A stretch of 40,862 nucleotides of DNA, taken from Bacteroidota bacterium. Its GTDB lineage: Bacteria; Bacteroidota; Bacteroidia; Chitinophagales; Chitinophagaceae. The position numbers were made by a program, and so were the translations under genes. This document shows positions 10,207-38,003 of the stretch, piece after piece. The stretch covers positions 1 through 40,862 of the forward strand of contig RDXK01000097.1 in the NCBI GenBank assembly GCA_004292605.1, read 5' to 3'. Numbering within the stretch: the stretch's first letter is position 1; every line of letters starts with the position of its first letter. The notes under the pieces were generated by a model that worked only from the letters and a program-made list of their open reading frames with translations, was not told where the DNA came from and ran no database searches.

Positions 10207-10253
10207 ACTTAAAATTAGGCGTAAAACGCTATTGAAACCCATAAAATGCCCGT

Positions 10254-10291
10254 AAAAAAATAAGCCTGAACCTAAAAAAGATTCAGACTTA
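10254..10291 (-). terminator. Intrinsic terminator of the haloperoxidase operon
   Basis: On the minus strand: TAAGTCTGAA-TCTTTTTTAGG-TTCAGGCTTA followed by TTTTTTT; 10-bp stem with one G-U pair. Confidence 0.8.
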
Positions 10292-10324
10292 GTTTTCATT
10301 CAAAATATAACCACGAGTAAGTAA

Positions 10325-11866: not shown

Positions 11867-11877
11867 ACTATTATTAT

Positions 11878-12819: not shown

Positions 12820-12846
12820 ATAGTTGTAATTGATTGTTGGCAAAAG

Positions 12847-14178: not shown

Positions 14179-14227
14179 AATAGAAACAGTAAATAATAAA
14201 GAAAGAAATCTCCAAGTAAATCAACTA

Positions 14228-14770
14228 CTAGCCAGCAATGGGTGGTTTGATTTCACCGTAAAGAAAAGGTGTTTTGTAATGGATGGTGAAGCATTCCTCA
14301 TAAGTTGGCGTTTGCTTTATAAACCTATCAACCTTCCAAATATCTTGTTCTTCAAATTCTGTGAAGCCTTTAAAAGAGGCAATTTTTTTACCAGATTGCT
14401 TTTGCGATTGTAAATCGTTCAACGATTCAAATACTTTTACGCTAGCAGCAGCAATATTGTTTTTTGCGGTATGCGGTATACACTGCAAAAACATGGTATC
14501 GTTGGTTATTTTTTGTTGTACATAATGGTATACTACCCCATCTATCTCAATTTCACCATCTACCCGTTGGTATTGCTGCCAATCTACCTGATACGGTAAC
14601 GAGATAGGCACTTTGATGGTAAACAATTCCTGCTCAGAAAAATTACCAGCATCTAACCGATTCTCCAATGCCACATCGCTCTGCCACTGGGCATAAGCAT
14701 TAGCTACCCTGTGGCCTATAGAAGCCCAGCATAGCACCAACAAACAGCATATGGCAATAACTTGTTTCAT
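14228..14770 (-). CDS. Hypothetical exported protein, first gene of the haloperoxidase unit
   Basis: MKQVIAICCLLVLCWASIGHRVANAYAQWQ... signal peptide; same strand and 49 bp from the next gene; start chosen at 14770 over ORF-track 14956. Confidence 0.7.
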   Translation of the reverse strand: MKQVIAICCLLVLCWASIGHRVANAYAQWQSDVALENRLDAGNFSEQELFTIKVPISLPYQVDWQQYQRVDGEIEIDGVVYHYVQQKITNDTMFLQCIPHTAKNNIAAASVKVFESLNDLQSQKQSGKKIASFKGFTEFEEQDIWKVDRFIKQTPTYEECFTIHYKTPFLYGEIKPPIAG

Positions 14771-14896
14771 GTTTTGGAATGGTGAATATACTGATTTTCG
14801 TTTTTTATTAACAAATACACCGAATTTAAAAAACCTTAATCTGCCTTTTGTGTTTTCTAATTGGGGAAATGATGAAACCATGCACAAGCAATGCAG

Positions 14897-14904
14897 TACA
14901 TTTG
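14897..14904 (+). promoter_or_regulatory. Candidate Bacteroidota -7 element (TAnnTTTG) upstream of the oxidoreductase gene
   Basis: TACATTTG, 38 bp upstream of ATG 14942; no clear -33 TTTG at the expected spacing. Confidence 0.45.
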
Positions 14905-14941
14905 CCCCGCAAAACATAGCAATCATTTTAGGGGATTTACC

Positions 14942-16786
14942 ATGAGTACAGAACAATTAGTAAAAGACGTAGTAATAAAATTTGCAGGAGATAGCGGCGA
15001 TGGTATGCAACTTACCGGCCAACAGTTTACCAATAACACAGCCTTACTAGGTATAGATTTAGCCACTTTCCCCGATTTTCCGGCGGAAATACGGGCCCCA
15101 CAGGGAACATTGCCGGGTGTAAGTGGATTTCAACTGCATTTTAGTAGCGATAAAGTATACACGCCCGGCGATTTGTGCGATGTGCTAGTAGCCATGAATG
15201 CTGCTGCCTTAAAAGTGAACTTGAACACACTAAAACCCGGTGGAAAAATAATCGTAAACACCGATGGTTTTGATGCCAAAAACCTACGATTGGCCAACTA
15301 TGCCGATGGTATAAACCCGCTAGAAAACGGAAGTTTAGATAGCTATGAGGTAATTAAAATGGATGTAACTAAAATTACCCGTGAAGCATTAAAGGAGGTA
15401 CATGAGCTAGGTACCAAGGAAAAAGACCGTGCCAAAAACATGTTTGTACTAGGTTATTTATACTGGATGTACAATAGAAGTTTGGAAAGCACCATTAGCT
15501 TTTTACAAGAAAAATTTGGTAAGAAAGATGTGGTTTTGCAAAGCAATATCAAAGTGCTACAAGCAGGCTACAACTATGGCGATACTACAGAAACATTTAC
15601 CACCCGCTACAAGGTAGAAAAAGCAAAGCTTGCCAGTGGAAGCTACCGAAATATTATGGGTAACCAAGCCTTAGCCTATGGTTTAATAGCCGCTAGCGAA
15701 CAAAGTGGCTTACCTATTTTCTTAGGTACCTATCCTATTACACCAGCATCGGATATTTTGCACGAATTAAGTAGGCACAAAAGCTTTGGCGTACAAACTT
15801 TTCAAGCGGAAGATGAAATAGCAGGTATTACAGCAGCTATTGGCGCTAGCTACGGAGGCAACCTTGGTGTAACTACTACAAGCGGCCCCGGTATGGCACT
15901 TAAAACCGAGGCTATGGGTTTAGCGGTAATGCTGGAAATACCTTTGGTAATAGTAAACGTACAACGTGGTGGCCCTAGTACAGGATTGCCCACTAAAACC
16001 GAACAGAGCGATTTAATGCAAGCCTACTATGGTAGAAATGGCGAATGCCCTATGCCAATAGTAGCCGCCCATACACCTAGTAGCTGTTTTGATGCTGCCT
16101 TTGAAGCAGTAAGGATTGCCGTAGAACATATGACTCCGGTGATACTGTTAAGCGATGGTTTTATAGCCAACGGAGCAGAACCTTGGCAGTTTCCACAGCA
16201 AGAAAATTTACCTACCATACAAGTAAGTTTTGCGGAGGCGAAAGAGGATGAAGCTTTTATGCCCTATAGCCGTAACGAAAAACTAGCACGCCCTTGGGCC
16301 ATACCAGGAACCAAAGGGTTAGAACATAGAATTGGTGGTTTAGAAAAACAAAATATAACAGGTAATGTAAGTTACGATGCGGAGAACCACCAAACCATGG
16401 TGTTACTACGCCAAGCTAAGGTAGATGCTGTGGCAAACTATATTCCTGAACAAACCATTGATAGCGGCGCCGCCACAGGTAAGGTATTAATACTAGGCTG
16501 GGGCAGTACTTACGGAGCTATTAAAAGTGCTGCGTTGGCGTTACAAAAAAAGGGCTATGCTGTTAGTCATGCTCACCTTACATATATCCGTCCGTTTCCT
16601 AAAAATTTAGGTGCATTGTTGGCACAATTTGAACACGTGTTGGTACCGGAAATTAACAACGGTCAATTAGTAAAAATTATTAGAAGTGAGTTTTTGGTAA
16701 ATGCCAAAGGCTATAATAAAATCAAGGGTAATCCTATCACCACTACAGAGCTTGAAGCGTTTGTAGAGGAAACTTATTTTAGTTAG
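14942..16786 (+). CDS. 2-oxoacid:acceptor oxidoreductase, fused gamma-alpha subunit (KorA-like)
   Basis: FAGDSGDGMQLTGQQFTNNTALLGIDLATFPDFPAEIRAPQGT (gamma domain); YPITPASDILHELSRHK, QAEDEIAGITAAIGASYGG, TTSGPGMALKTEAMGLAVMLEIPLVIVNVQRGGPSTGLPTKTEQSDL (alpha domain). Confidence 0.93.
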   Translation: MSTEQLVKDVVIKFAGDSGDGMQLTGQQFTNNTALLGIDLATFPDFPAEIRAPQGTLPGVSGFQLHFSSDKVYTPGDLCDVLVAMNAAALKVNLNTLKPGGKIIVNTDGFDAKNLRLANYADGINPLENGSLDSYEVIKMDVTKITREALKEVHELGTKEKDRAKNMFVLGYLYWMYNRSLESTISFLQEKFGKKDVVLQSNIKVLQAGYNYGDTTETFTTRYKVEKAKLASGSYRNIMGNQALAYGLIAASEQSGLPIFLGTYPITPASDILHELSRHKSFGVQTFQAEDEIAGITAAIGASYGGNLGVTTTSGPGMALKTEAMGLAVMLEIPLVIVNVQRGGPSTGLPTKTEQSDLMQAYYGRNGECPMPIVAAHTPSSCFDAAFEAVRIAVEHMTPVILLSDGFIANGAEPWQFPQQENLPTIQVSFAEAKEDEAFMPYSRNEKLARPWAIPGTKGLEHRIGGLEKQNITGNVSYDAENHQTMVLLRQAKVDAVANYIPEQTIDSGAATGKVLILGWGSTYGAIKSAALALQKKGYAVSHAHLTYIRPFPKNLGALLAQFEHVLVPEINNGQLVKIIRSEFLVNAKGYNKIKGNPITTTELEAFVEETYFS

Positions 16787-18709: not shown

Positions 18710-21700
18710 TTAATTCACTGTAATAAGTGCTAGCTTATCGTTATTTCTGGCTACTAGGTACAATAGCTTTCCTTTTACTTGAATGGGCTGTATATGCCTT
18801 ACCTGCCCATCTAACGCATATCCCCGTACCACCTGTGTAGCAAAGCTAGTATTGTTATATTGAAACCAGGTGCCATGCTCTGCATCGTACCGCCCCATCT
18901 GAATATTATTTTCAAAATAGTTTCCGGCTAATAGCACTGCTTTATAATTATTCGAACTGTAATTGAACCCACATTTTAATGGTGATAATTGCAACGCATA
19001 AGGCAATGGTGTATCCTTAAACACACCGCCTTGGTTAATCAATAAAGTATTCCTTAGCTCCGTGGCTTTCCATTGGGTAGCTTGGTCTAGCTTTTCCTTA
19101 CCAAATAAATTTTCTAGCTGCGATTTTGCAAAATCCTCTGCGTATAAAAACTTCTTTTTTAACAAGGGCATTTGCTTTTCCAACTCAGCTTTATTTGCAA
19201 AAGGAATTTGCTTACCGTTTAGAAAATAAGTGAGCACTTGTTCCTTAACACCGTTACCATCAAAATCATTATAATACAACTGAATAGGCTCCTTTTCGCT
19301 GGCTTTTAACCTACTATTTAAGCCAATATTTCCCGCAATGATATCTATATCGCCATCGTTATCTACATCGGTCGGTATCACCGCATTCCAAAGCCCATTT
19401 TTGGTAAAGATGTTATTCACAGTAAGTGCGTTTTTAGTGCTTTGCAGCGAATATATTCCACCCCATTCTGTACTAATTACCAAGCAATTTTCTTTGTTTT
19501 TTCCAATGGGTGCCAACTTTGCATCTGTTACAAAACCAATGTTGTTCAATGCATTTTGAAAACTAGCTGGTGCCGATGCGAATGTTCCATTTTTTTGGTT
19601 GAGCAATACATAACTTTTGGGTTGTTCGCCGTAATTATATACTACTGCACGGCTGCCAATAAACACATCTTGCCAGCCATCTCCATTCACATCCCATACT
19701 ACTAAGCAAGCCGCAGTGGTAAATACATTTGAAAAAGCGTTAGGCATTGGTGTAAGTATACCTTTGTTGTTCATGTACAGTCTTGGTTGTTGACGTTTAT
19801 CGCTACCATAATATTCGTTTCCACCGCTGGCCACAAGCAAATCGTTCCAGCCATCGTTATTGATATCGGCAAAAACAGCGTCTACATCTTCATAAGTACT
19901 ATCGTTTATTAAACAGCTAGGTGTGTTGTTTACAAAACTACCTTGCGATGTTTGGGTGTATAACGCAGGTTTATTTCCTTTACTATTTCCAATAAAAAAA
20001 TCCTCTAATCCATCCTTATTATAATCGCCTACGGCCAATGCCGGTCCTTCTCTTGATACCATATGCGGAATCAATGGCTCTCGATCAAACTCATTGAAGG
20101 GATTTTCGGTATGTGTAAAATTTACTCCCAAGCTATCTGCCACATCTCGTACAATAGGAGTTGCGTTGTTAAACTTAGTTAGTCGATAATTGGCATAGTT
20201 ATAAAGCTTAGCATCGGCGGTGTATTGAACCTTGTAAACAGTATCCAACTGCTTAACAGGAACTTGCTGGTACGTATTGTTTGGCCAAATCACCAACACA
20301 CTATCTGGCACAGCGCTACCAGCTATACCCATATGCACAGGACCTAGCATACTACTCTGAAAGCCATGTACAGCCTGCATTTCAGCCGTTTGTATACTTC
20401 CGTTGATATACAGTAGTATCTTTGCCCCTATAGCAAACTCATTCCCTTTAGCACCTTGCAAATCAAATTTTATATAGTGGTGTTGGCTACTGGTATCGCT
20501 ACTGCTTATTCGGGTTTTATTTTCGTATAGCATGGCGGCAGCATCTATATTGTTTACCACCACATCCACATCGCCATCATTATCAAAATCGGCATAGGCG
20601 GCTCCATTGCTAAAAGTATTGGCATCGTTTTGTATGCTATTAGCAGCATCAGAAAACAACGCATCGCCCTGATTTATGTAAAATTTATTCGGAATTTTTA
20701 TCTGCGGAAATTGATTGATGACTGCCATTTGCTTTTCATCAATCTTGTTTTGATTAATGGTGGCTTGCACCGCATCGTTACTTATATAATTTACATAGTC
20801 TATATCGTTCAAGCGCTTGGGTATGCCATTGCTTACAAATAAATCTTTCTTACCGTCGTTATTAAAGTCCAGCCATAAAGGGCTCCAGCTCCAGTCGCTT
20901 GCGTATACACCACTGTACAAACCCACTTCAGAAAAGCGATTGTTTCTTCTATTTAACTGCAAGTTATTGCGGGTGTATTGGTAGCTATAACCGTACCTAA
21001 TTTTCATGTAAAAAGTAGTGTACTCATCCTCACCTAAACTCCGTTTTAATATATAAGGATCTTCCGGAAGCATATCTGCAGAAATTATTTCTGGATAACC
21101 ATCATTGGTAACATCGGCAATATCTACGCCCATGGTAAACTGGCTGGTATGATCGAGCCAGTTGCTACTTTGCTCCTGAAACGTTCCGTTTTTCTGGTTG
21201 ATATATAGATAATCATTTTCATGAAAATCGTTTCCAATATAAATATCTGGGTAGCCATCTATATTCACATCTTGTACCGCTACGCCTAACCCATAACCAA
21301 TGGCATTGCTATTGATACCCGATTGTGCGGTAACATCTACAAATTTTCCGTCGCTATTTTTATACAATCTATCACCCGATAAGTCGTTGGTTTTACCAAG
21401 AAAAAGACTCCGCTCGGCAAAAGTTCCATTTTGGTGAACGGAATGGTTGAGCAGATACATATCTAAATCGCCGTCTACATCATAATCAAAAAATACCGCT
21501 TGTGTACTGTAACCGCTAAAGTTTAGGCCGTACTCGGCAGCACTATCCTTATAGCTGGGAATACCATCTTTAATACCAGTACAAATCAATAACTCATTAG
21601 CTCCCCGCAGGTTTTCAAGCTTGCTCACTTTACACAAATAAATATCTAACAAGCCATCGTTATTAATATCTATCACACTAGCTCCCGTGTACCAATGGCC

Positions 21701-22024
21701 CGTGGCCACTATTTGGGTTTTTGCAGTAACATCCTCAAACTTATTTTCTTTTTTATTAATGTATAATGTGTTTGGTTTTTGGTTACCACAAAAGAAAATA
21801 TCCATCCAACCATCGTTGTTAAAATCGGCGGTAGCCACACCAGCACCGTTGTAAAAATACATGTACTTAAACACGTTGAAACTATCCGTTGCGGTAAGTG
21901 TATTCGCAAATACTAGTCCGGTTTTGCTGCTATCCAGCATTTCAAACAATACAGGCGATTTGGCTGTTTTGTGGCAGCTTGTAAACAATGCATAAGCCAT
22001 TATTAACCATAGAAACTTACGCAT
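18710..22024 (-). CDS. VCBS/FG-GAP repeat lipoprotein with UnbV/ASPIC domain (paralog 2)
   Basis: Lipobox LFTSCHK; at least ten D-x-D/N-x-D-G motifs (DFNNDGWMD, DINNDGLLD, DYDVDGDLD, DVNGDGWQD...); UnbV/ASPIC-like NEFAIGAKILLYINGS...GFQSSM...DSVLVIWPNN. Confidence 0.9.
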   Translation of the reverse strand: MRKFLWLIMAYALFTSCHKTAKSPVLFEMLDSSKTGLVFANTLTATDSFNVFKYMYFYNGAGVATADFNNDGWMDIFFCGNQKPNTLYINKKENKFEDVTAKTQIVATGHWYTGASVIDINNDGLLDIYLCKVSKLENLRGANELLICTGIKDGIPSYKDSAAEYGLNFSGYSTQAVFFDYDVDGDLDMYLLNHSVHQNGTFAERSLFLGKTNDLSGDRLYKNSDGKFVDVTAQSGINSNAIGYGLGVAVQDVNIDGYPDIYIGNDFHENDYLYINQKNGTFQEQSSNWLDHTSQFTMGVDIADVTNDGYPEIISADMLPEDPYILKRSLGEDEYTTFYMKIRYGYSYQYTRNNLQLNRRNNRFSEVGLYSGVYASDWSWSPLWLDFNNDGKKDLFVSNGIPKRLNDIDYVNYISNDAVQATINQNKIDEKQMAVINQFPQIKIPNKFYINQGDALFSDAANSIQNDANTFSNGAAYADFDNDGDVDVVVNNIDAAAMLYENKTRISSSDTSSQHHYIKFDLQGAKGNEFAIGAKILLYINGSIQTAEMQAVHGFQSSMLGPVHMGIAGSAVPDSVLVIWPNNTYQQVPVKQLDTVYKVQYTADAKLYNYANYRLTKFNNATPIVRDVADSLGVNFTHTENPFNEFDREPLIPHMVSREGPALAVGDYNKDGLEDFFIGNSKGNKPALYTQTSQGSFVNNTPSCLINDSTYEDVDAVFADINNDGWNDLLVASGGNEYYGSDKRQQPRLYMNNKGILTPMPNAFSNVFTTAACLVVWDVNGDGWQDVFIGSRAVVYNYGEQPKSYVLLNQKNGTFASAPASFQNALNNIGFVTDAKLAPIGKNKENCLVISTEWGGIYSLQSTKNALTVNNIFTKNGLWNAVIPTDVDNDGDIDIIAGNIGLNSRLKASEKEPIQLYYNDFDGNGVKEQVLTYFLNGKQIPFANKAELEKQMPLLKKKFLYAEDFAKSQLENLFGKEKLDQATQWKATELRNTLLINQGGVFKDTPLPYALQLSPLKCGFNYSSNNYKAVLLAGNYFENNIQMGRYDAEHGTWFQYNNTSFATQVVRGYALDGQVRHIQPIQVKGKLLYLVARNNDKLALITVN

Positions 22025-22025
22025 A

Positions 22026-25000
22026 CTACAGCTTTGTTTTTGGGGTGAAAGAATATACTTGTGGCTTGGCATTATTATTAGCTATCAATAGTTGACGCCC
22101 ATTTACATTATTCAGCCACACCATTTTACGCATAGCCAAGGCACTAAATATACCCGAGTGCCTATTTTCTACATAGGTGTAGCCACCCTTTTTATTATTC
22201 AATAATACATGGCCGTAACTAGCATCTAGCCGACAAAACTGTGGCAATAAATCAAAGAAATTTCCACCGCAAATTACATCCTCATATCCATCAGCATTTA
22301 CATCGGCTGGTGCAAAACATTGCACAGAACTTAACTGTACGGGAAGCGGTAACTGCTGGATAGTAAACTTGCCTCCGCCTTGGTTTACAGCCACTACAGA
22401 ATAAGGATTAGAGAATGTTTGCACCTCTGCTTTTTCCAATAAATCGGCGTCAAATAAATCGGCTACCGACTTGTTTGCATAATCGTGGTTTTTCAAGTTC
22501 TTCTTCTTTAAACTAGGCATCTGATCGGTCATGTCTCGTTTCATAAATACAGGCTTATCCTTGCCTGTCACGGAGCTTGTAATCACTTTATCTAACATGC
22601 CGTTTTTATCAAAATCTTGTATCCAAAGTTTTGCAGGTGCTTCCTTACTTACTTGCAGGTAATAATTCGGACTGATATTGCCCAATAGCAAATCGGCTTT
22701 GCCATCTTTATTGATATCGGTCGCCGCTACCGATTGCCAAAATCCAAACTCATTTTCAAGCGAAGTCTTCACCACCTTCCACGGCTTTGTGTTTGTTTTG
22801 AAAATGGTAGGAGCCATCCACTCGCCTACTACTAGTAATTCCTCGTCTGCATCCTCATCGATATTGGTCCAAATAGCTGCTGTAAGCATTCCCAAACGCT
22901 GCAATGGCGGGCAAAGTTCACTTGCTTTATCAAAAAACTTTCCTTTACCATCATTCTCTAATAAGGTAGATAAAGGTGCTACCCCATAATTCTGCGGTTC
23001 GCTTCTAGCAGTAACCACTAAATCTATATCACCATCCTTATCCCAATCTTTTGCAACGATGGAACTTGTATTATTTGTACTTACAGGTAAGGCAGTATAA
23101 TCAATTGCGAAATTTCCTTTACCATCATTTTTGTATACTCTATTTTGGTATTGTGGGCTACCAGCAGGTACATGATTGCCACCACTACCCACCACGATAT
23201 CAAGAAATTTATCACCATTCACATCTACCATTACAGCGGCCACATCTTCAAAAGATGCAAACTGTGTAAATACTTTTTGCTGCTGTTGGGTGTAACCGCC
23301 TTGACTGGTTTGAAGATATAATATTGCCGCTGAGCCGGCAGCACCACCCACAAAAACATCTTCCCTACCATCGCCATTTACGTCGCCTGTGGCTACACAA
23401 GGCCCTTGTGTGCTAAGCATATTAGGCACATTACGCTCCTGGTAAAAATCGTTGTAATCATCTTCTACATGGGCTTCAAAACTATTGGGTATAGCTGTAA
23501 ATAGGATATTCTCACTTGTCATTTCTGAAGCAACGAAGGGAACACTTGCCGACTTGCTGTATACAATATTATGAACCTTATTTACCGCTGGCTTTAGTAA
23601 GGTTTGCTGTGTATTGTTGGGCCATACTATCACTATACTGTCTATGTTTCGGGTGCCTAGGCCTAGCGTGGCTTTATACTCCATACTACTTTGGAATCCT
23701 CTACTAGGAATCACTTCCTTGCTTATAATATCGGCACCACAATAAGCCAATATTTTTGCTCCAATGGCAAATGAGTTGGCAGTATTCACACTGGTATCTT
23801 TTAGTAAAATACCAATGAATTTATTGCTGGAATGGGTTTCCTGTGAAGTGTTTTTGTAAACAAAACTTGGCTGGTTTACATTGTTTACAATTAGGTCTAA
23901 ATCGCCATCATTGTCCAAATCTGCATAGGCGGCTCCATTGGAAAAACTTGTTTGTGTAAAGCCAAATTTATCGCCTTCATCAGAAAACAAAAGGTTGCCG
24001 TTGTTCTTAAAAAAGTAATTTTTTACGGGTGTGATAGGCATTTTATTGATTACTTCATCTATCTGTTCCTTTTGACCAGTGATGGCCATTTTTTGTACTA
24101 CATCATTGGCAAAAAAGTCAATAAAATCTTGGTCGGTTACATCGTGGTAAATTCCATTGCAAACAAAAATATCGTTCCATCCATCGTTATCTGCATCAAA
24201 CAGTAAGCCTCCCCAGCTCCAATCGCTTGCAGCCACGCCACTCATAAAAGCAGTTTCCACAAAATGGCCGTTTTTGTTGTTTACTTGCAAAGTATTTTGC
24301 ATGTATTGATTGTAAAAGCCGTTGTTGGTTTTTACCCTATTCAAATCAACATTTTCAAAGCTAGAAGTGGTTTTTAATCGGTAATCATCTTTAGGAAGCA
24401 TATCCGTAGTAAATATATCGGGGAAGCCATCGTTATTTACATCGGCAATATCGGCACCCATACTACTTTGGCTAGTATGCTGAATTAAAGAAGTGAGCTG
24501 CTCCGCAAAGCGACCATTTTTTTGGTTGATGTATAAATAATCTCGTTCAAAAAAGTCGTTGCTTACATATATATCGGGATAGTTATCGCCATTTACATCG
24601 CCAATATTTACACCCAAGCCAAAGCCTATTAAGCTACCGTAAATACCTGCTTGTTCGCTTACATCTTCAAACACGCCTTTGTTATTGCGTAATAGTTTAT
24701 CGCCACCACCTTTTAGGAAGTCGGCCACAGGCCAATCCTTAGCCCGTAAATCGCGTTTATTGCTGTAGTTAAGGGTGTTTACTGGTATAAAGCTATTGTT
24801 TAAAATATAGCAGTCTAAATCGCCATCCTTGTCATAATCAAAAAAAGCAGCATGTGTGGTATAGCCACCATCTCGCAGGTTATAATCGTCTGCCTTTTCG
24901 GTAAATGTTCCGTTTTTATTATTAATGTATAGGTCGTTCCCTTGTGGAATTCCTTTTTGGTAGCCGGCATTACACACATAAATATCTAACCATCCATCAG

Positions 25001-25352
25001 CATTCAAATCTACCATCACTACACCTGTGCCCCATTTTTTTTGGTGTAGTATTCCAGCCTTTTGTGTAACATCTTCGAAGGTGAAATTTCCCTTATTTAG
25101 GTATAGTTTGTTTTCGCCCATATTACTGGTAAAAAAAACATCGGCCAAGCCATCGTTATTAATATCACCAGTGGCCACGCCGCCGCCATTGTAAAAATTT
25201 CGATAGCTAAAAATGTTGAAGTCGCGATTGTTTTCTACCTTGTTAGTAAAGTTAATACCGCTATTATCTACCAATTGAAAAACGGGCGGCTGAGCTTGTT
25301 TTGGGCTGCATGCCTGTGCTAGCAACAGCCACAAAAAACCATATCTGACCAT
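22026..25352 (-). CDS. VCBS/FG-GAP repeat lipoprotein with UnbV/ASPIC domain (paralog 1)
   Basis: Lipobox LLLAQACSPK; at least ten Ca-binding-type motifs (DINNDGLAD, DLNADGWLD, DYDKDGDLD, DVNGDGRED...); UnbV/ASPIC-like NSFAIGAKILAY...GFQSSM...DSIVIVWPNN. Start could be 25367 or 25421. Confidence 0.9.
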   Translation of the reverse strand: MVRYGFLWLLLAQACSPKQAQPPVFQLVDNSGINFTNKVENNRDFNIFSYRNFYNGGGVATGDINNDGLADVFFTSNMGENKLYLNKGNFTFEDVTQKAGILHQKKWGTGVVMVDLNADGWLDIYVCNAGYQKGIPQGNDLYINNKNGTFTEKADDYNLRDGGYTTHAAFFDYDKDGDLDCYILNNSFIPVNTLNYSNKRDLRAKDWPVADFLKGGGDKLLRNNKGVFEDVSEQAGIYGSLIGFGLGVNIGDVNGDNYPDIYVSNDFFERDYLYINQKNGRFAEQLTSLIQHTSQSSMGADIADVNNDGFPDIFTTDMLPKDDYRLKTTSSFENVDLNRVKTNNGFYNQYMQNTLQVNNKNGHFVETAFMSGVAASDWSWGGLLFDADNDGWNDIFVCNGIYHDVTDQDFIDFFANDVVQKMAITGQKEQIDEVINKMPITPVKNYFFKNNGNLLFSDEGDKFGFTQTSFSNGAAYADLDNDGDLDLIVNNVNQPSFVYKNTSQETHSSNKFIGILLKDTSVNTANSFAIGAKILAYCGADIISKEVIPSRGFQSSMEYKATLGLGTRNIDSIVIVWPNNTQQTLLKPAVNKVHNIVYSKSASVPFVASEMTSENILFTAIPNSFEAHVEDDYNDFYQERNVPNMLSTQGPCVATGDVNGDGREDVFVGGAAGSAAILYLQTSQGGYTQQQQKVFTQFASFEDVAAVMVDVNGDKFLDIVVGSGGNHVPAGSPQYQNRVYKNDGKGNFAIDYTALPVSTNNTSSIVAKDWDKDGDIDLVVTARSEPQNYGVAPLSTLLENDGKGKFFDKASELCPPLQRLGMLTAAIWTNIDEDADEELLVVGEWMAPTIFKTNTKPWKVVKTSLENEFGFWQSVAATDINKDGKADLLLGNISPNYYLQVSKEAPAKLWIQDFDKNGMLDKVITSSVTGKDKPVFMKRDMTDQMPSLKKKNLKNHDYANKSVADLFDADLLEKAEVQTFSNPYSVVAVNQGGGKFTIQQLPLPVQLSSVQCFAPADVNADGYEDVICGGNFFDLLPQFCRLDASYGHVLLNNKKGGYTYVENRHSGIFSALAMRKMVWLNNVNGRQLLIANNNAKPQVYSFTPKTKL

Positions 25353-25578
25353 TTTGAGAAGGCACATATTTGTGTAGTATTTACAACTGCGAAAGATACT
25401 TGATTTTAGATGCAATGCCATTAGATTAGGCTTGTTTGGTGCAAAAAAGGCTAGCTAATAGTAGAATATTTTCTTGAGTGGGAATGTAGTAGTTGTAAGA
25501 ATAAATTAAATCATCAAGCTACTCAGTGACTGGTTGTTTTCTTGGGTTAGTGGCCACAATTCATTCCCATATAGTCAC

Positions 25579-25612
25579 AAAAAAAGAGCCCCTTTTTGAG
25601 CGGCTCTTTTCA
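25579..25612 (-). terminator. Intrinsic terminator downstream of susD-like gene
   Basis: aaaaagagcc / ggctctttt inverted repeat with A-tract on the plus strand (T-tract for minus transcription). Confidence 0.75.
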
Positions 25613-25628
25613 TTATTTGGTTCATTAA

Positions 25629-27209
25629 CTAGTAACCAGGATTTTGACGCAAGTTCGGGTTTACAGCCAATGCCGAGTTAGGAATTGGGAAGTAAAGAAA
25701 CTTAGGATCAGATACGTTTGGTTTCAAAGTACGAGCGGCTAAGAAGGTACCAAAACGAATTTGGTCCATTCTTCTCCATCCATCCCAATAAAACTCTCTT
25801 TGCCTTTCGTCTAGCATGTTAGCAGCAGTTAAGCTAGCTAATGGAGTAGCTCCACGGCGAGTACGTAAGTTGTTTACGTTTACCAAAGCAGCAGCGGTAT
25901 TACCACTTCTCATTTCGGCTTCAGCACGCATTAAAACTACATCAGCATAACGGAAAAATACATAATCGTTATCTGCCTGATCATCGCTAGATACATAGTC
26001 AACTGGGTACCGGTTTACACGTATACCAGTAACCTCTAGGTTGGCACCACTTTCTTGTAATGCTACAGTACGAGTGAATGCTAAAGGGTTACCACGACGA
26101 TCGTTCAAAGCAGCATCATTAGCCAAGTTATATTGCTGACCAATTAAGAAACCTGCATTGATACGGTTACCTGGGTTAGGCAAACCAGCTACACCTGTAG
26201 GGTATACCACACCACGACGCTGATCAGCAGCTTCAAATTTGTCATACACATCGGCTAAAGTAGTAAAGCCATTCCAACCGCTTTTATTCTGATTGTAGTG
26301 AGAGCCTTTGTACCAGCTACTTCTAACGTTTCCACCACGAGAGCTACCTTGGTTCTCATTGGTAAAAATGTTTTCTGTAGAAATAGCATCGTTGTTACGA
26401 GCATAGTTATCAAAAACGTTGGTAGCTAAAGAATAACGACCAGAGTTCATGATACCAGTAGCCAACGTAATTACTTGAGCCATATCGGCTGCTGCAAACG
26501 TAGGCGTAGCACGATTAGCGTAAGTACCTTTTTGTAAAAGCACTTTCATCATTAATACATCCGCAGCATCTTTAGTAGCTCTTTTAGCGCTAGGTACGCC
26601 AGTAGAGTTAGGCAAATTGGTACGGATAGCAGTTAACTCGCTCAATATAAAATCGGCTGCTGCTGTTCCACTTAAAACCGTTGGAGGATTTCTTAAATCC
26701 TCGCCTGGCTGGCGGAAAGGCACCTGACCATATAAATCTAATACGGTAAACATAGCAAATGCACGGATGAAGCGAGCTTCAGCGGCAATTTGATCTTTGT
26801 TTGCTGCGGTAGAAATAGAAGTGAACGTAAGTACGTTGGTAGTGTTAAATACGATACCCAACAAACCATTGAATACGTTCTGTACTTGCTGATGATCGGC
26901 ATTCCAAGTATGGTTGTGTATTACACGCCATACACCGTTATCATCCCAGTCACCACCACGGGTAGGTACCAAACTTTCATCGGAACTGTTTTCCATTAAT
27001 GATGTAGGACCATCCTGGTTTTGAAATATTTGTAATCCATCATAGCACGATTGAATCAATACGTTCAAATCGGCCGTAGCACCTAAGAAAGTAGATGCTT
27101 GCGCCTGAGTGGCGGTACTATTTAAATTTTCTTCTAGTTTGGTACAACTAGCTAAAACTACAAAAGCACCTACTCCCACCAAAGCACCTCTTTTCAATAC
27201 ATTTTTCAT
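25629..27209 (-). CDS. RagB/SusD-family outer-membrane lipoprotein
   Basis: Lipobox VVLASCTK; SusD features RAFAMFTVLDLYGQVPF, RYADVVLMRAEAEMRSG, ERQREFYWDGWRRMDQIRFG, C-terminal NPNLRQNPGY. Confidence 0.95.
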   Translation of the reverse strand: MKNVLKRGALVGVGAFVVLASCTKLEENLNSTATQAQASTFLGATADLNVLIQSCYDGLQIFQNQDGPTSLMENSSDESLVPTRGGDWDDNGVWRVIHNHTWNADHQQVQNVFNGLLGIVFNTTNVLTFTSISTAANKDQIAAEARFIRAFAMFTVLDLYGQVPFRQPGEDLRNPPTVLSGTAAADFILSELTAIRTNLPNSTGVPSAKRATKDAADVLMMKVLLQKGTYANRATPTFAAADMAQVITLATGIMNSGRYSLATNVFDNYARNNDAISTENIFTNENQGSSRGGNVRSSWYKGSHYNQNKSGWNGFTTLADVYDKFEAADQRRGVVYPTGVAGLPNPGNRINAGFLIGQQYNLANDAALNDRRGNPLAFTRTVALQESGANLEVTGIRVNRYPVDYVSSDDQADNDYVFFRYADVVLMRAEAEMRSGNTAAALVNVNNLRTRRGATPLASLTAANMLDERQREFYWDGWRRMDQIRFGTFLAARTLKPNVSDPKFLYFPIPNSALAVNPNLRQNPGY

Positions 27210-27234
27210 TTTCTCTTGTTTTGAAGTTTTATAA

Positions 27235-30225
27235 TTATAGTCCAAATCTAACACCTAATTGGATATTTCTGGCTGTTGGGTAAGGAATATACTCGATACC
27301 GAATGAAGGTACACCACCGATGTTTCTATCGGTATTTACTTCAGGGTCAAAACCAGTGTATTTAGTGATGATAAATAGATTTTGTGCATTTAAGAACACA
27401 TTTAAGCTCTTAATGTTTTTGCCTACTGAACCTACGTTATAAGCTACTGAAACGTTAGCCAAACGAAGATAATCACCACTCTCTAAATAACGGCTAGATG
27501 CCTTGATTGGGTTTGATAAAGATTCTCTTGGGCTCAAGCTCATTAAACTGCTAGCAATGTTACGGCTACCTAAGTTACCAATTGGTAATACAGCGTTCAA
27601 AGTATTGTTATAAATACTGTGGCCATAAGCACCATTAGCATTCAAAGCGAAAGACCATTTTTTGTAAGTCAAATCGGTAGAAATACCTAATAACATGCGT
27701 GGGTTTGGATCGCCAACGTACTGAGGATTCTCGTTATCGGCATAAGTACCAATACCGTTAGCATCTAAACCTGTGAAGCGACGAAGGTACCAAGCATTTA
27801 CTGGCTGGCCACCTTCGTTTCTTTGAGAGAAAGCACCACTTAAACCTTGACCACCAATAGCACCTGTTAAGATAGCAGGGCCGTTATAGTCTTGGAATAC
27901 GTTTTTCAAGAAAGCAGCATTAACATTGAAATTCCAAGTTAAATCTTTCTTCTGCATTACTACAGTACCTAAACTTACTTCCACACCTGAGTTCAGGATT
28001 ACTGCATTTTCAATATTTCTCCAAACTACTACAGCAGGAGCTGGTTGAATGGCGTTGAAAGCAAATAATATGTCAGATGACTGACGGTTAAAGTAGTCGA
28101 TGCTACCATAAACTTTTCCTTTGGCAATAGCAAAGTCAACACCCACGTTGAATTGTTTGGTGGTTTCCCACTTCAAATCTGGGTTGGCTACGTTTAACTG
28201 TACCAAACCACCACCGTTAGCGCTGTAACCCCACTGGGTTTGAGCAGCACCAGCTGGGAAAGCTTGGTTACCCGTTAAACCGTAAGATGCACGAATTTTT
28301 AAATTTTGGAACACTTTATTGTTCTTCATAAAGTCTTCGTTCATTACGTTCCAAGCTATAGCCGCAGATGGGAAATAACCGTACTTGTTGTTGGCACCAA
28401 AACGAGAAGAACCATCAGCACGCATAGTACCAGTGAAAATATAACGATCCTTGTAGTTTAGAATTACACGACCGAAGTATGACTGGATAGAAGCAGCAGG
28501 ATCTTCGAAAGAACCAATTACACGAGAAGCTGTAGGTGCATTTTGGATGATATTATAGAAAGGAACATCATCGTTAGCAAAACCAATACCGCTCATGCTG
28601 CTGTTTCTGAATACAAATTTTTGGTATTCGTAACCAGCTAAAGCTGTCAAGTTTAAATCTTTGGTTACACGCTTGTTGTAGTTCAAAGTGTGCTGTACTA
28701 CTTGAGTGTTGAACTCGGCAGTACCGTAAGCACCCAAACCTCTGTTTTCTACAGATGGTAAAGTGATGTAACGTGCAATCATTGAACGGCGGATACCAGA
28801 CTGGCGGTTTAAACTCACGGTTAATTTATAATCTAAATCATCAGTCAATTTGTAACCTAAGCCTACAATACCCTGGAAATTGCTGATATCAGAAATATCG
28901 CGGTATCCACGCTGCATAGCTACAGGGTTTACTATACTTGAACCTGGGATGATATTTAAACCAGTAGGATGAGCAGAATTATACAAAGTTTGTGTAGGAT
29001 TCCACTGTAATGCCATGGCAATTAAGTTACCCGTAAAACCGGCATCGGTGGTAATAGGAGCAATATTTTCTTTGGCTTGGCCAGCGAAAATGTTGAAATC
29101 AAGACTTAATCTCTTGTTCTGTAAAAACTTGTACTGACCGTTTGCATTAATGGTAAAGCGCTGCAAATTGGTATTTTTAATAATACCATTTTGATCGAAG
29201 AAACCTAATGAAACACGGTATTTACCGTTTTCGCTACCGCCACTAATACCCACATTATGGTTATTAGTAATGCCAGTTTGTAAAATTTCGTCAAAAGCAT
29301 TTACGCTAGTACCAAAGTTACCAGTAGGTACCGCAGAGGTACTAACTGTAGTAGGTAAGCCATAAGTACCAAGAGCACTTCTGTACTCATCGCCACTTAA
29401 GGTTTTGTATCTGCGTAAAATATTGCTGGTTCCTATGCTAGAGCTTACATCTACTTTAGCAGCTCCGCTAGAACCTTGTTTGGTAGTAATTACAATAACA
29501 CCATTAGCACCACGAGAACCGAAGATAGCTGTAGCAGAGGCATCTTTCAATACATCCATGCTAGCTATGTCGGCTGCGTTAAAAAAGTACAATGGGTTAC
29601 TTTCTGGTGTGGTACCTAATGCCGCTGAACCGAAGCCAGGGCGGGCCAAACGGCCATCTAAAGGAATACCATCTACCACAAATAATGGGTTGTTTCCTGC
29701 ACGGATACTACCATTACCACGAATACGAATAGTAGATGCAGCACCTGGAGCACCAGAGCTAGTAACTACTTGTAAACCGGCCACTTTACCTTGGATCAAC
29801 TGATCGGGAGATGCAATTACACCTTGGTTAAAATCCTTGGCTTTAACGGATGCTACTGCACCTGTTAAATCCTTTTTACGTGTAGTACCATAACCAATTA
29901 CTACTACATCTGATAATGAACCGCTAGAAGCCACAAGACTTACACTAACATCGCCACTACCTACACTTACCTCTTGCTCATCAAAGTTCAATGAGCTAAT
30001 TACCAGCTTGGTTACACTAGCTGGCACACGAAGACTAAAAGTACCATCGGCTTTAGTTTGGGTGCCTACTTTTGCACCCTTAGCTACTACGCTGGCACCT
30101 GCTACCGGACTACCGTCTTTTGAGTCCGATACCTTTCCTGACACGGTTTTATCTTGAGCCAAAGCTGGTAACGATACACAGCTAAGCACTACCAGAAAAA
30201 CCTTAAACAGTCGTTTTAGATTCAT
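27235..30225 (-). CDS. SusC/RagA-family TonB-linked outer-membrane protein
   Basis: Carboxypeptidase-like regulatory domain (VSGKVSDSKDGSPVAGASVVAKG), SDVVVIGYGTTRKKDLTGAV, plug motif LKDASATAIFGSRGANGVIVITTK, C-terminal beta strand. Confidence 0.96.
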   Translation of the reverse strand: MNLKRLFKVFLVVLSCVSLPALAQDKTVSGKVSDSKDGSPVAGASVVAKGAKVGTQTKADGTFSLRVPASVTKLVISSLNFDEQEVSVGSGDVSVSLVASSGSLSDVVVIGYGTTRKKDLTGAVASVKAKDFNQGVIASPDQLIQGKVAGLQVVTSSGAPGAASTIRIRGNGSIRAGNNPLFVVDGIPLDGRLARPGFGSAALGTTPESNPLYFFNAADIASMDVLKDASATAIFGSRGANGVIVITTKQGSSGAAKVDVSSSIGTSNILRRYKTLSGDEYRSALGTYGLPTTVSTSAVPTGNFGTSVNAFDEILQTGITNNHNVGISGGSENGKYRVSLGFFDQNGIIKNTNLQRFTINANGQYKFLQNKRLSLDFNIFAGQAKENIAPITTDAGFTGNLIAMALQWNPTQTLYNSAHPTGLNIIPGSSIVNPVAMQRGYRDISDISNFQGIVGLGYKLTDDLDYKLTVSLNRQSGIRRSMIARYITLPSVENRGLGAYGTAEFNTQVVQHTLNYNKRVTKDLNLTALAGYEYQKFVFRNSSMSGIGFANDDVPFYNIIQNAPTASRVIGSFEDPAASIQSYFGRVILNYKDRYIFTGTMRADGSSRFGANNKYGYFPSAAIAWNVMNEDFMKNNKVFQNLKIRASYGLTGNQAFPAGAAQTQWGYSANGGGLVQLNVANPDLKWETTKQFNVGVDFAIAKGKVYGSIDYFNRQSSDILFAFNAIQPAPAVVVWRNIENAVILNSGVEVSLGTVVMQKKDLTWNFNVNAAFLKNVFQDYNGPAILTGAIGGQGLSGAFSQRNEGGQPVNAWYLRRFTGLDANGIGTYADNENPQYVGDPNPRMLLGISTDLTYKKWSFALNANGAYGHSIYNNTLNAVLPIGNLGSRNIASSLMSLSPRESLSNPIKASSRYLESGDYLRLANVSVAYNVGSVGKNIKSLNVFLNAQNLFIITKYTGFDPEVNTDRNIGGVPSFGIEYIPYPTARNIQLGVRFGL

Positions 30226-30492: not shown

Positions 30493-31227
30493 CTAAAAAT
30501 CTATCCCAACCCAGTCTTTTTTGCCGCTTTCGTATTTTTTATAGTTAAAAGTGTACAATTTACCGGGCCTGTGGGCAACGTTTAACTCCATTTCGCCGGT
30601 ATCTTCCAAGAAATCCATGGTAAAAAATTTCTTTCTAAAATTTCGCCTATCCAGTTTCATTCCTAAAATGGCTTCGTAAACGCCTTGTAATTCTCTTAGG
30701 CTAAATTTCTCCGGTAGTAGGCTAAAACCTAAAGGGTGTTCCTGAATACGTTTTTGTAACCAACCGTAGCAGGTTTCAAATATTTCTTTATGGTCAAATG
30801 CCCAATCTATTTCATCTTGTACTGGGTGCCAATGCAAATCGTTATCGGTGCAGGTAAGCTGATGATGAGCAATATTTATAAGGGAACAATAAGCCACCGT
30901 TACCACCCTTCCGCCGGGGTGCCTATCTGGTGTGCTAAAACATTTTACTTGATCCAAAAAAACATCGCTTAAACCGGTGCGTTGTTTCAAGACACGGTAA
31001 GCGGCTTCGTCGGTAGTTTCAGTGTGGGTAATTTCATTTCCTAGTAAACTCCACTGCTCGGTATAGTTTTCCAAATCGCTTTTAATCAATAGTACTTTCA
31101 GCTGCCCATCTTGGTAGCCAAAAATTACACAGTCGATAGTAACAGCAATTTTTTGGTACGAACGTACTAGCTGGCTTGCATTTTTTGTATCGGAAAACAG
31201 TTGTTTGCTTAATGGTTCAGCGTTCAT
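30493..31227 (-). CDS. Nudix-domain transcriptional regulator (NrtR/AraR-like, Nudix + winged helix)
   Basis: Nudix-like region VTIDCVIFGYQDGQLKVLLIKSD...GNEITHTETTDEAAYRVLKQRTGL; C-terminal wHTH FSLRELQGVYEAILGMKLDRRNFRKKFFTMDFLEDTGE. Confidence 0.85.
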   Translation of the reverse strand: MNAEPLSKQLFSDTKNASQLVRSYQKIAVTIDCVIFGYQDGQLKVLLIKSDLENYTEQWSLLGNEITHTETTDEAAYRVLKQRTGLSDVFLDQVKCFSTPDRHPGGRVVTVAYCSLINIAHHQLTCTDNDLHWHPVQDEIDWAFDHKEIFETCYGWLQKRIQEHPLGFSLLPEKFSLRELQGVYEAILGMKLDRRNFRKKFFTMDFLEDTGEMELNVAHRPGKLYTFNYKKYESGKKDWVGIDF

Positions 31228-31319: not shown

Positions 31320-32477
31320 CTATTGTACTTCTACCGTATATCTATTGGTATGAAAGTTCAATGTGTATCGGTAGTTACCAGCTACGGCTGGTGTAGGAAT
31401 GGCATCAGGGTCGCCACCGGAACCAAAGTTGGCTCCTAACACTCCACCTGTGGCACTGCTTCCACCAAACTGCGGCTGCCAGTTGCCTGGATTTGAAACA
31501 AATTTTATAAATCTACCAGGCTGTGTAGCCATCGTAATTTGGAAAATACCATTGGTAAGTTGGGTTAACTCTTGGTTAGTGGGTGGGTTATTGTTCCAAC
31601 CACCGGCTGTACCATCACCCAAAGCCCATAAACGTTCTGGCAAAGGATCGGTACGACGGGTAACGGTGAACTGACCTGCTTGAAAATCGAACACCATACG
31701 GTACCAGCCAGCACCACCACTTACGTTACCTGGGAAATTGTCGTTTAAGTTTACACCAAATGCACCTCCGTTGGCCAAACTAGGTAAGGTATTGTTGGCT
31801 ACAGCTAGTTTGTTATCCCAAACGTTGCCCAATTGTGGTAAAATTAAATACGAACCAGAACCACTTAATTGAAAAATTCCCGCCCATGTAGTTTCATCTA
31901 CACGTGTTAATTCTCTTACAGCAGGGAATGGTGGGTTTTGTGGGTTGTTCCAGCCAAAAGTAGTAGCATCACCCACTATCCATAGGCGTTGCGTACCAGG
32001 TAAAGGAACCCGTGGAGGAATTTTATAAGGTGTTACACGTATACGCAAAACGTTGCTACGCAATTGCTCGTTATTATTAGCGTGGCTAGATGTTACACGA
32101 ACCTCTATATCATACGCTGTATTGAACGCAAAACCAAAACCAAGTAAAATGGTATTTAGCTCACGATTGGTCATGCTAGTAGTTAGGGCACCGGAAACGG
32201 TTCTGCTTACGGCCTTATTAAAGTTTCTACCTACACTATCAATTTCTAATACGTATTTAACCGAAGCAGAATCTACACTATAATTAGGATTTGTCCAGTT
32301 AAAACGTAATCCTAGGTTGTTAGAGTCGGCAGGCAACGGTGCCCATGTGGTGGCAGAAGCTGTTAAAACAGGTGCTGCACCATTTTGAAAACTTGGTAAA
32401 GGGTCTACTTTAGTACAAGCTGCAAACGCTAGTACCAATAGGGTAATGCCCGATAATAATTGAAATACTTTTTTCAT
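31320..32477 (-). CDS. SusE/SusF-like surface glycan-binding lipoprotein with two C-terminal modules
   Basis: Lipobox LAFAACTK; SusE N-terminal pattern FNWTNPNY...VLEIDSVG; two repeats LWIVGDATTFGWNN and LWALGDGTAGGWNN. Confidence 0.87.
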   Translation of the reverse strand: MKKVFQLLSGITLLVLAFAACTKVDPLPSFQNGAAPVLTASATTWAPLPADSNNLGLRFNWTNPNYSVDSASVKYVLEIDSVGRNFNKAVSRTVSGALTTSMTNRELNTILLGFGFAFNTAYDIEVRVTSSHANNNEQLRSNVLRIRVTPYKIPPRVPLPGTQRLWIVGDATTFGWNNPQNPPFPAVRELTRVDETTWAGIFQLSGSGSYLILPQLGNVWDNKLAVANNTLPSLANGGAFGVNLNDNFPGNVSGGAGWYRMVFDFQAGQFTVTRRTDPLPERLWALGDGTAGGWNNNPPTNQELTQLTNGIFQITMATQPGRFIKFVSNPGNWQPQFGGSSATGGVLGANFGSGGDPDAIPTPAVAGNYRYTLNFHTNRYTVEVQ

Positions 32478-32489
32478 ACTATGTTGTTT

Positions 32490-33353
32490 TTACAGTCTTG
32501 TTACAGTATAAATACCTCTTTGAAAATCTACTACAATTTTGTAGTTGCCGCTAGCAGCGGGTGCACGAAGGTTGTTACCACCCTGGCGGAAATTATCGGA
32601 ATCTGGGTTGGGAGCATTCGTTACGGCACCATATTTTTCAGGATCGGGTGCTACTGCACTCCAGTTTCCATAACGGGGAACCAACAAATATTCTGCACCA
32701 CCATTTAAGGCAATCGAAGGTATTTCGTATAAAGTTCTGCTGCGTCTAATAAACTGTTGAGCAGCCACCGGGGCATCGCCTCCGCCCATCCAGCCAGCTG
32801 GTGTGGCAGCGCCCGTAATCCACAGGGTTTGTGGTGCAGGTGGTTCCACCGCTGGTGGTATAGCAAATGTGCGAACCACAAAACGTATGGTGTTAGATAC
32901 TACAGGCAATGCATTGTTAGCCAAGCTAGCGGTAACACGTACTTCAATCGTGGTGTTACGCAAGCTATCTACACTAAGGCGGTTTAGCAATAAGCTATTT
33001 AATTCGCCTACGGTAAACTGCTTCATTAAATCGCCGCTGTAAGTAATAGCAATACGACTTGGTGAACTAAAGTTTACACCAAGGGTATCAATTTCTAATA
33101 AATAGTTCACGGTTTGTGAGCTAATACCAGTAGTAAACTGATAGTTAGGGTTTGTCCAATTTAAACGAATCAAATTATTGTCTCTATTGGCAAAACGCAT
33201 ATCGGCTACTAGCGATGCTCCTGCTGCCCTATCGGCACTAATTACAGGTGCAGTGCTACCCTCTGCATATAACTTATTTTCTGTTTTGTAACAGCTGGCC
33301 AGCATCATACTAGTAGCTACCACCAGCGTTAACAGTTTCATTATATTTTTCAT
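32490..33353 (-). CDS. SusE-like surface glycan-binding lipoprotein with one C-terminal module
   Basis: Lipobox MMLASCYK; LNWTNPNYQ...YLLEIDTLG; single LWITGAATPAGWMGG module. Confidence 0.85.
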   Translation of the reverse strand: MKNIMKLLTLVVATSMMLASCYKTENKLYAEGSTAPVISADRAAGASLVADMRFANRDNNLIRLNWTNPNYQFTTGISSQTVNYLLEIDTLGVNFSSPSRIAITYSGDLMKQFTVGELNSLLLNRLSVDSLRNTTIEVRVTASLANNALPVVSNTIRFVVRTFAIPPAVEPPAPQTLWITGAATPAGWMGGGDAPVAAQQFIRRSRTLYEIPSIALNGGAEYLLVPRYGNWSAVAPDPEKYGAVTNAPNPDSDNFRQGGNNLRAPAASGNYKIVVDFQRGIYTVTRL

Positions 33354-33372
33354 TGTTGAAATATGTTTTAAA

Positions 33373-34959
33373 TTAATAACCTGGGTTTTGTACTAAATTA
33401 TTGTTGGCTTGTAAATCGTTTGCAGGAATAGGATACAATCTACGGAAAGCTGGAACAGCAGTACCATCTCGTACACCACCTTTCCAAGGCCATAGGTAAG
33501 AAGCTTCTACAAAACGATTGTATCTAATTAAATCGGTACGGCGGTGGCCTTCCCAGTACAATTCTCTTGCACGCTCATCTAGAATAAAATCTAAGTTTAA
33601 CTGACCGCTGTTAATGTTTCCTGTAGCATTTCCATAAGCCCTTGTGCGTAGCAAATTCACATAATTTAACGCTGTAGCTGCATCGCCACCAGTACCACCA
33701 CGTAAAACTGATTCTGCATATATTAGATACATTTCAGCTAGGCGGAACAAAGGCATGTCAATGTCCACAAAAGTGGGGTTGCTACCATTGGCACCGCTAC
33801 GCGTACGGTTACGGTATTTGGTGATGGCGAAACCATCGGTAAACGTGGTTTGATTTGCGATATCAATGCTTTGACCAGAGGTAAAAAACTGCGATCTTCT
33901 GTCGGCCGCACCGGTAACATCAGGAAATAAATCGGGAATACGGCGGGTAGTTCTAATACCACCCCAACCATTGTCTACCCCAAAATCGCTAGCATTCATG
34001 GTGCCACCAATAGCAGCGTGTGTAAGGAAGGTAGTACCACCAAAGTTCTGGGTTCTGATTCCATCGTAATTGATAGTACCAATAAACTCCGATGTGTTTA
34101 GGTTATTATCGGCCAACATTAGGTTACGATAATCACCAATCAATGTATAACCACCTGCAATTACCCTGCTAGCGTAAGTAATAGCATCGGTAAAACGGTT
34201 GGTACCTGTGTATACACCAGCGTTTAAATACAAGCGAGCTAATAAAGCTTGAGCAGCACCTCTGTCTACACGGCCATACTCGTTGGTACGGTAAGCAGGC
34301 AATAAGGTTTCTATAGCTTTTAACTCATTTTCTATGTAGGTAAATAACTCCGCTCTGCGTATTTGGCGTGGGTTACCAGCACCTATTACATCGGCCTCGG
34401 TAATGAATGGAGGATTTCCAAATAAATCCATCAATATCCAATATTGGTAGGCACGTAAAAATCTTGCTTCTACTGCATAGCCAGCAATATTGGTAGCATC
34501 GGCACCAGAAATTCCTCTTTCGGCTACTTTACCTGGAGCACTCTGACGAATAAATTCGTTACACAAAGTAATTTGGTAGGTACTACGGTAATACAAACCC
34601 GTTAACATTGGGTTGGCTGCCGTCCAGTTCATGTTATGAAAATCCTGTATACCCGGATCGCCCCATGCTACTACAGCCTCATCGGTGCTTAGCTCTTGGG
34701 CTTTCCAATACAAGCGGAAAAAATCGGATGTACCAGCATCTATACCAGCAATATCGCCAGAGCCTGGGCCTCCATTACCTGTTAAGGCAAAGGCACCGTA
34801 CACTTTAGCTAAGGATTGCTTGTAGCCTTGCGGTGTGCTATACACCACTTCAGCAGTAATATCGTTGGTAGGAAAAAGGTCTAATTTTTTCGAGCAAGAT
34901 GCTACTGCACCCGCTAAAAATGTAGCTACCACCGTAAGTTTTAAAATACTTCTTTTCAT
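33373..34959 (-). CDS. RagB/SusD-family outer-membrane lipoprotein
   Basis: Lipobox GAVASCSK; RFLRAYQYWILMDLFGNPPF, RLAEMYLIYAESVLRGG, ERARELYWEGHRRTDLIRYNRF, C-terminal NNNLVQNPGY. Confidence 0.95.
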   Translation of the reverse strand: MKRSILKLTVVATFLAGAVASCSKKLDLFPTNDITAEVVYSTPQGYKQSLAKVYGAFALTGNGGPGSGDIAGIDAGTSDFFRLYWKAQELSTDEAVVAWGDPGIQDFHNMNWTAANPMLTGLYYRSTYQITLCNEFIRQSAPGKVAERGISGADATNIAGYAVEARFLRAYQYWILMDLFGNPPFITEADVIGAGNPRQIRRAELFTYIENELKAIETLLPAYRTNEYGRVDRGAAQALLARLYLNAGVYTGTNRFTDAITYASRVIAGGYTLIGDYRNLMLADNNLNTSEFIGTINYDGIRTQNFGGTTFLTHAAIGGTMNASDFGVDNGWGGIRTTRRIPDLFPDVTGAADRRSQFFTSGQSIDIANQTTFTDGFAITKYRNRTRSGANGSNPTFVDIDMPLFRLAEMYLIYAESVLRGGTGGDAATALNYVNLLRTRAYGNATGNINSGQLNLDFILDERARELYWEGHRRTDLIRYNRFVEASYLWPWKGGVRDGTAVPAFRRLYPIPANDLQANNNLVQNPGY

Positions 34960-34986
34960 TGCTATTATTTTATAATTGAGTGGTGA

Positions 34987-37974: not shown

Positions 37975-38003
37975 ATTCTGTGTTGTGTTTTGAATGGAAA
38001 AAT

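Follow-up and report, generated by a model that had tools for sequence, protein, structure and literature searches.

Bacteroidota take up nutrients chiefly through SusCD systems, whose accessory subunits known so far are for the most part enzymes and beta-sandwich proteins that bind sugars. The genes of surface glycan-binding proteins (SGBPs) commonly lie directly behind susD. SusCD and surface lipoproteins form utilisomes (PMC7618045), and a TonB transporter can also be capped by a propeller, as shown by BtuG, a seven-bladed surface lipoprotein sitting on BtuB (PMC10404256).

We analyzed a stretch of 40,862 nucleotides from a Chitinophagaceae genome (contig RDXK01000097.1; hereafter the window), in which a SusC/SusD pair is followed by two genes encoding FG-GAP/ASPIC lipoproteins, named here V_A and V_B (V for the whole family). 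Like the Sus and polysaccharide utilisation loci with SusE/SusF or SGBPs, and like utilisomes (PMC7618045), this locus has SusC-SusD, then surface-type lipoprotein genes, with sugar-enzyme genes and a regulator nearby. By contrast, SGBPs are beta-sandwich proteins whereas V proteins are tandem FG-GAP propellers of about 1,100 aa with an ASPIC domain, the V transcription block holds no endo-enzyme, and a terminator precedes V. The locus would resemble BtuB-BtuG (PMC10404256) in having a propeller-shaped surface lipoprotein that serves a TonB-dependent transporter. BtuG, however, is one seven-bladed domain replacing SusD as the lid, and V is an additional protein with two propeller halves in a system that retains SusD, which is not the arrangement of a BtuG-type lid. 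In the open-access literature, which mostly leaves subscription journals outside, we found nothing relevant on SusD together with VCBS, FG-GAP, UnbV or CRTAC1, an absence that is no proof.

Organization of the locus

As presented in Table 1, SusC2, SusD2, the hairpin, V_A and V_B form one co-directional block, with no enzyme gene between the four coding sequences. The adjacent SusC2 and SusD2 belong to SusCD by their TIGR04056 and PF07980 matches, both above the cut-off. Upstream on the same strand stand, in this order, a GH13 amylase, SusC1, SusD1, SusE, SusE/F and a Nudix/winged-helix regulator, then SusC2; this amylase and regulator, with alpha-glucan genes at 13 of 20 orthologous loci, mark a polysaccharide utilisation locus. 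On the other side, a helicase gene and, on the other strand, a POR-type oxidoreductase gene separate V_B from a run in which the genes of a 242-aa protein, two vanadium-haloperoxidase-like proteins and a trehalase are tightly packed, as measured by their gaps. The source genome has seven SusD matches and no ASPIC proteins other than V_A and V_B.

A sequence-only reading of the window had described SusC, SusD, a terminator and two tandem co-directional VCBS/FG-GAP + UnbV/ASPIC lipoproteins, and the profile matches and the hairpin confirmed each of these. It had also noted the lack of degradative enzymes, which holds between the genes but not directly upstream, where the GH13 amylase-SusCDEF locus and the Nudix regulator lie. 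Its proposal of a non-classical SusCD system was not sustained, as the pair adjoins a starch locus and its orthologs occur with GH13, GH65, SusE, trehalase and LacI/Nudix regulators.

Table 1. Features of the SusCD-V block and its surroundings (window positions).
Feature	Position	Strand	Evidence and remarks
SusC2, SusC/RagA-family TonB-dependent transporter	27235..30225	-	996 aa; TIGR04056 667 bits (cut-off 368); PF07715, PF00593, PF13715
SusD2, SusD-family surface lipoprotein	25629..27209	-	PF07980 90.6 bits; ATG at 27209, giving 526 aa; lipobox ..VLASC; PDB relatives are SusD proteins
Terminator-like hairpin between susD and V genes	25575..25609 (about)	-	Hairpin + T-run
V_A, FG-GAP/VCBS + UnbV_ASPIC lipoprotein	22026..25352	-	PF13517 (FG-GAP_3) 248 bits; PF07593 56 bits; ORF open from 25421
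V_B, second FG-GAP/VCBS + UnbV_ASPIC lipoprotein	18710..22024	-	PF13517 208 bits; PF07593 43 bits; ORF open from 22072
Nudix + winged-helix (NrtR/AraR type) regulator, directly upstream of SusC2	30493..31227	-	PF21906, PF19368, PF00293
Starch-type locus, upstream context	31320..40781	-	Five genes
GH13 amylase of starch-type locus	38004..40781	-	Carries CBM48 and a T9SS tail match
SusC1 of starch-type locus	34987..37974	-	
SusD1 of starch-type locus	33373..34959	-	
SusE of starch-type locus	32490..33353	-	
SusE/F of starch-type locus	31320..32477	-	
Downstream run: 242-aa protein, two vanadium-haloperoxidase-like proteins around a 321-aa protein, trehalase	8644..14956	-	PF01569, PF01204
Vanadium-haloperoxidase-like (PAP2) proteins	12847..14178 and 10325..11866	-	PF01569; 321-aa protein between them is a probable outer-membrane protein
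Trehalase	8644..10299	-	PF01204

V_A and V_B are distinct tandem-propeller paralogs

Both proteins carry FG-GAP repeats and one UnbV_ASPIC domain each above the curated cut-offs. The likely true starts, 25352 for V_A (MVRYGFLWLLLAQAC) and 22024 for V_B (MRKFLW..FTSC), would each give a clear lipoprotein signal, and a lipobox-like Cys was present in 191 of 235 V proteins. With its likely start V_B begins 1 nt past the V_A stop, suggesting translational coupling. The Ca motifs announced by the sequence-only reading were recovered, with 11 Ca-type DxDxDG motifs in V_A and 10 in V_B compared to 0.07 in shuffled sequences; each of 63 relatives had 10-13. The AlphaFold2 model of V_A, a confident one (pLDDT 91.8, pTM 0.91), comprises propeller-type strands, the ASPIC domain near 552-616 and further propeller-type strands. 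Its best solved fold match was CRTAC1 (9etn; E 6.7e-28), with a TM-score of 0.72 on the target but just 0.37 on the whole query, and CRTAC1 was also the top match of V by profile search. V proteins thus resemble CRTAC1 and integrin alpha propellers in their FG-GAP propeller, Ca motifs and ASPIC domain, whereas these are animal extracellular proteins and V adds a second propeller half and a lipoprotein signal. Only the FG-GAP and ASPIC families were matched in V_A and V_B, with none of the known SusE/SusF/SGBP domains; neither a catalytic family match nor a ligand-binding residue was found in the V proteins.

V_A and V_B are 38% identical to each other. A recent simple tandem duplication was rejected, since the V_A and V_B orthologs keep their order and 52-58% identity. 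Close relatives have, with few exceptions, an A-like V first and a B-like V second, and the A-then-B order was found in 30 of 45 V arrays across all depths.

Conservation of the SusC-SusD-V order

Searches with V_A gave a match in 70 of 100 genomes of the family and in 165 of 297 genomes of the phylum, and also covered additional named genomes; gene order was determined for 60 loci cut out of genomes and for 80 named loci. The order SusC-SusD-V(1-3) was observed in 102 of 128 evaluable loci, these loci being chosen by V and not by SusCD, and counted where the flank was sufficient. SusD stood upstream of V on the same strand at 19/20 closest, 28/39 other family and 55/69 phylum-wide loci. The sequence-only reading had asked whether VCBS pairs lie next to susCD in relatives, and these counts favour a module over chance. 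SusD-V loci come from at least 17 families, with one further record each from Calditrichota and Gemmatimonadota, and the order persists from Chitinophagaceae to Flavobacteriaceae and Cytophagales-type families. A total of 97 V genes lie directly 3' of susD, as SGBP genes commonly do.

Within six whole genomes, at least 13 of 44 ASPIC domains were encoded directly behind a PF07980 match (0.3 expected by chance) and at least 27 of 44 had such a match within 14 kb; the adjacency count is a lower bound, as PF07980 misses some SusDs. In the reverse direction, about one tenth of SusDs were V-linked (17/150 among the matches listed).

Some further features of these arrays were recorded. Between the V genes of SusCD-V arrays, 21 loci (L064:7191-7766 and 20 others) encode a family of about 196 aa that has no Pfam match. 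Another protein, some 310 aa long and with a weak match to a GyrI-like domain, lies beside V arrays in about 41 loci, often convergently (L042:2020-2946, L111:17916-18809). SusC-SusD-V arrays outside Bacteroidota were seen at L123 and L156, in records named Gemmatimonadaceae and Calditrichota.

Inheritance of the module

V-linked SusDs clustered in a tree of 115 SusDs, where their label required 8 changes compared to 29 in shuffles. Patristic distances were correlated for SusC-SusD (r 0.94), SusC-V (r 0.68) and SusD-V (r 0.55), with 0/2000 permutations for the two latter pairs, whose correlations are partly due to shared species history. Within single genomes, the SusD-V correlation vanished (r 0.13) and that of SusC-V was weak (r 0.51, p 0.04, 16 pairs). 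Strict co-evolution of V and SusD inside genomes was not supported, and partner matching of V appears looser than that of SusC and SusD. For 18 of 20 V proteins, the home paralogs were more distant than the V encoded next to the nearest SusC in another genome. Modules are thus inherited as ortholog groups, with looser long-term partner matching. Overall, the genetic coupling of V with SusCD is virtually certain.

Proposed function of the V proteins

The gene order, its conservation, the paralog order, the fold class and the neighbouring alpha-glucan genes are observed, and from them we infer surface exposure of V, a physical complex, a ligand and its hand-over. We favour, with some reserve, the reading that SusC2, SusD2, V_A and V_B work as one unit, a TonB-dependent SusCD importer with two tandem-propeller accessory surface lipoproteins. 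Anchored to the outer membrane on its outer face, the V propellers, predicted to be Ca-stabilised, would capture the ligand, act as a scaffold for the complex around SusC, or do both, and would hand the ligand to SusD, for import by SusC with TonB energy. In the susD-downstream slot of SGBPs, V would represent propeller-shaped capture or scaffold subunits of SusCD. The recurrence of the SusCD-V order across the phylum makes it very probable that the V proteins belong to a widespread and apparently undescribed form of surface sugar-uptake machine, and a role in uptake is reasonably likely. Counted against the one-unit reading were the looser partner matching within genomes, the roughly 20% of V loci with no adjacent SusCD, the terminator between susD and V, the different neighbours of V systems elsewhere and the lack of an identified ligand-binding residue.

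If true, this would assign a function to a lipoprotein family that ranks among the largest uncharacterised ones in soil and marine Bacteroidota, with up to 14 FG-GAP/ASPIC lipoproteins per genome among six checked, and would extend propeller lids beyond vitamin B12 uptake.

Alpha-glucan neighbours and the cargo

GH13, GH65, SusE or trehalase genes were present at 13/20 closest loci, the Chitinophagaceae-type orthologs, compared to 2/38 other V loci of the family (p = 1.9e-6), the loci having been split by V_A similarity before neighbours were counted and the marker genes chosen after the neighbours had been seen. LacI (9), Nudix/winged-helix (7), GH65 (6) and GH13 (5) proteins were found among 102 neighbours of the 20 closest loci, a set that also takes in those of three further loci. 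At L043 and L049, a co-directional GH13-regulator-SusC-SusD-V order corresponds to the window array minus the SusCDEF insertion. We lean slightly towards an alpha-glucan or alpha-glucoside oligosaccharide as the cargo here and in close relatives. Alpha-glucan uptake is the leading guess for the module of the window and is not proposed for every V module: elsewhere the neighbours differ, so that the cargo is not alpha-glucan in every case.

Import of a non-sugar cargo, for example peptides or a cofactor, with the alpha-glucan genes as incidental neighbours, is a doubtful alternative although the strongest of those considered. The diverse cargo of SusCD/RagAB and BtuBG systems and the scarcity of alpha-glucan genes outside the close group speak for it. 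Against it stand the strong enrichment within the ortholog group and the position of a Nudix or LacI regulator between the amylase or phosphorylase and SusC.

Vanadium-haloperoxidase-like neighbours

The commonest neighbour overall was a haloperoxidase-like family, found at 47/141 loci, with 32/49 copies immediately following a V gene in the same orientation. Families of the downstream run of the window were also found beside V genes in L046, L098 and L120. The first protein of the window pair (12847-14178) matched PDB 4cit, the Zobellia vanadium iodoperoxidase, over its full length (E 4.9e-117), and the K-x6-RP, SGH and R-x5-H motifs were present in 31/48 haloperoxidase-like proteins. Full-length relatives of 4cit are thus encoded directly behind V in many loci, whereas the window copy lies outside the V transcription block; family membership does not establish halide chemistry for the V-linked proteins.

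This link, a second testable lead, raises the alternative that V proteins are SusCD-associated enzymes or enzyme partners, acting with the downstream haloperoxidase-like protein to oxidise, halogenate or dephosphorylate a surface substrate before it is imported. The frequency and placement of the family, the 4cit similarity and the motifs agree with such a role, which we nevertheless consider unlikely: only 1/20 close loci has a haloperoxidase-like gene, most alpha-glucan-type loci have none, V matches no catalytic family, and the window copies lie two genes away from V_B, one of these genes on the other strand. Returning to V as accessory subunits of an importer, a broader version is tentative at best, in which importers across the phylum would use one to three double-propeller FG-GAP/ASPIC lipoproteins as a second SusCD capture layer, V_A and V_B being distinct subunits, and many lineages would add a vanadium-peroxidase-like enzyme at the surface that modifies the cargo before uptake.

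Alternative readings: adhesion and chance adjacency

Because the solved relatives of V are the FG-GAP propellers of integrin alpha and CRTAC1, and because a terminator precedes the V genes, V proteins could also be integrin-like surface adhesins or matrix proteins, co-expressed with SusCD on polymer surfaces and acting outside uptake. This is a little less likely still than the enzyme role, as a general adhesin would not keep so strictly to the place behind susD, the paralog order is fixed and V-linkage follows the SusD tree. The sequence-only reading had proposed ligand-capturing or adhesive accessory proteins; given the SusD-V adjacency counts in relatives, the ligand-capturing part stays the best reading, and the adhesive part is without direct support. 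Passive hitch-hiking of V genes with SusCD islands, to which the fifth of V loci without SusCD nearby and the numerous susD paralogs (182 in six genomes) might point, is highly improbable and, as a general explanation, refuted by the six-genome adjacency counts and by an order kept from Chitinophagaceae to the Calditrichota and Gemmatimonadota records.

Hairpins and expression signals

The hairpin 3' of susD pairs AAAGAGCC with GGCTCTTT across an 11-nt loop (GCTCAAAAAGG), with T's after (TTTTGTGA); a stock terminator scan missed it because its loop exceeds 8. Terminator-like hairpins were found in 65/90 SusD-V gaps of at least 25 nt compared to 0.8 in dinucleotide shuffles, and in none of the V-V or V-other co-directional gaps, the median V-V gap being 5 nt. 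This pattern suggests that SusCD and V are expressed at separate or unequal levels from one locus, the susD terminator probably setting a lower or separate level for V. Such hairpins also lie in 19/38 gaps behind other SusDs, and a susD terminator was therefore rejected as a hallmark of V loci.

Immediately beyond the right end of the window, the exact palindrome GTGTA-N5-TACAC occurs twice, 26 bp apart (L012:953-993; contig 40953-40993). The two copies lie upstream of the amylase operon, which ends with the Nudix regulator, and form a candidate operator. No operator common to the starch operon and SusC2/V_A was found, the pair being present only upstream of the amylase; its absence at SusC2 and V_A was counted against the one-unit reading. 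In another subset of V arrays (L084, L099, L101, L175 and L176), FecR/ECF sigma-type regulator genes lie upstream of SusC in place of LacI/Nudix.
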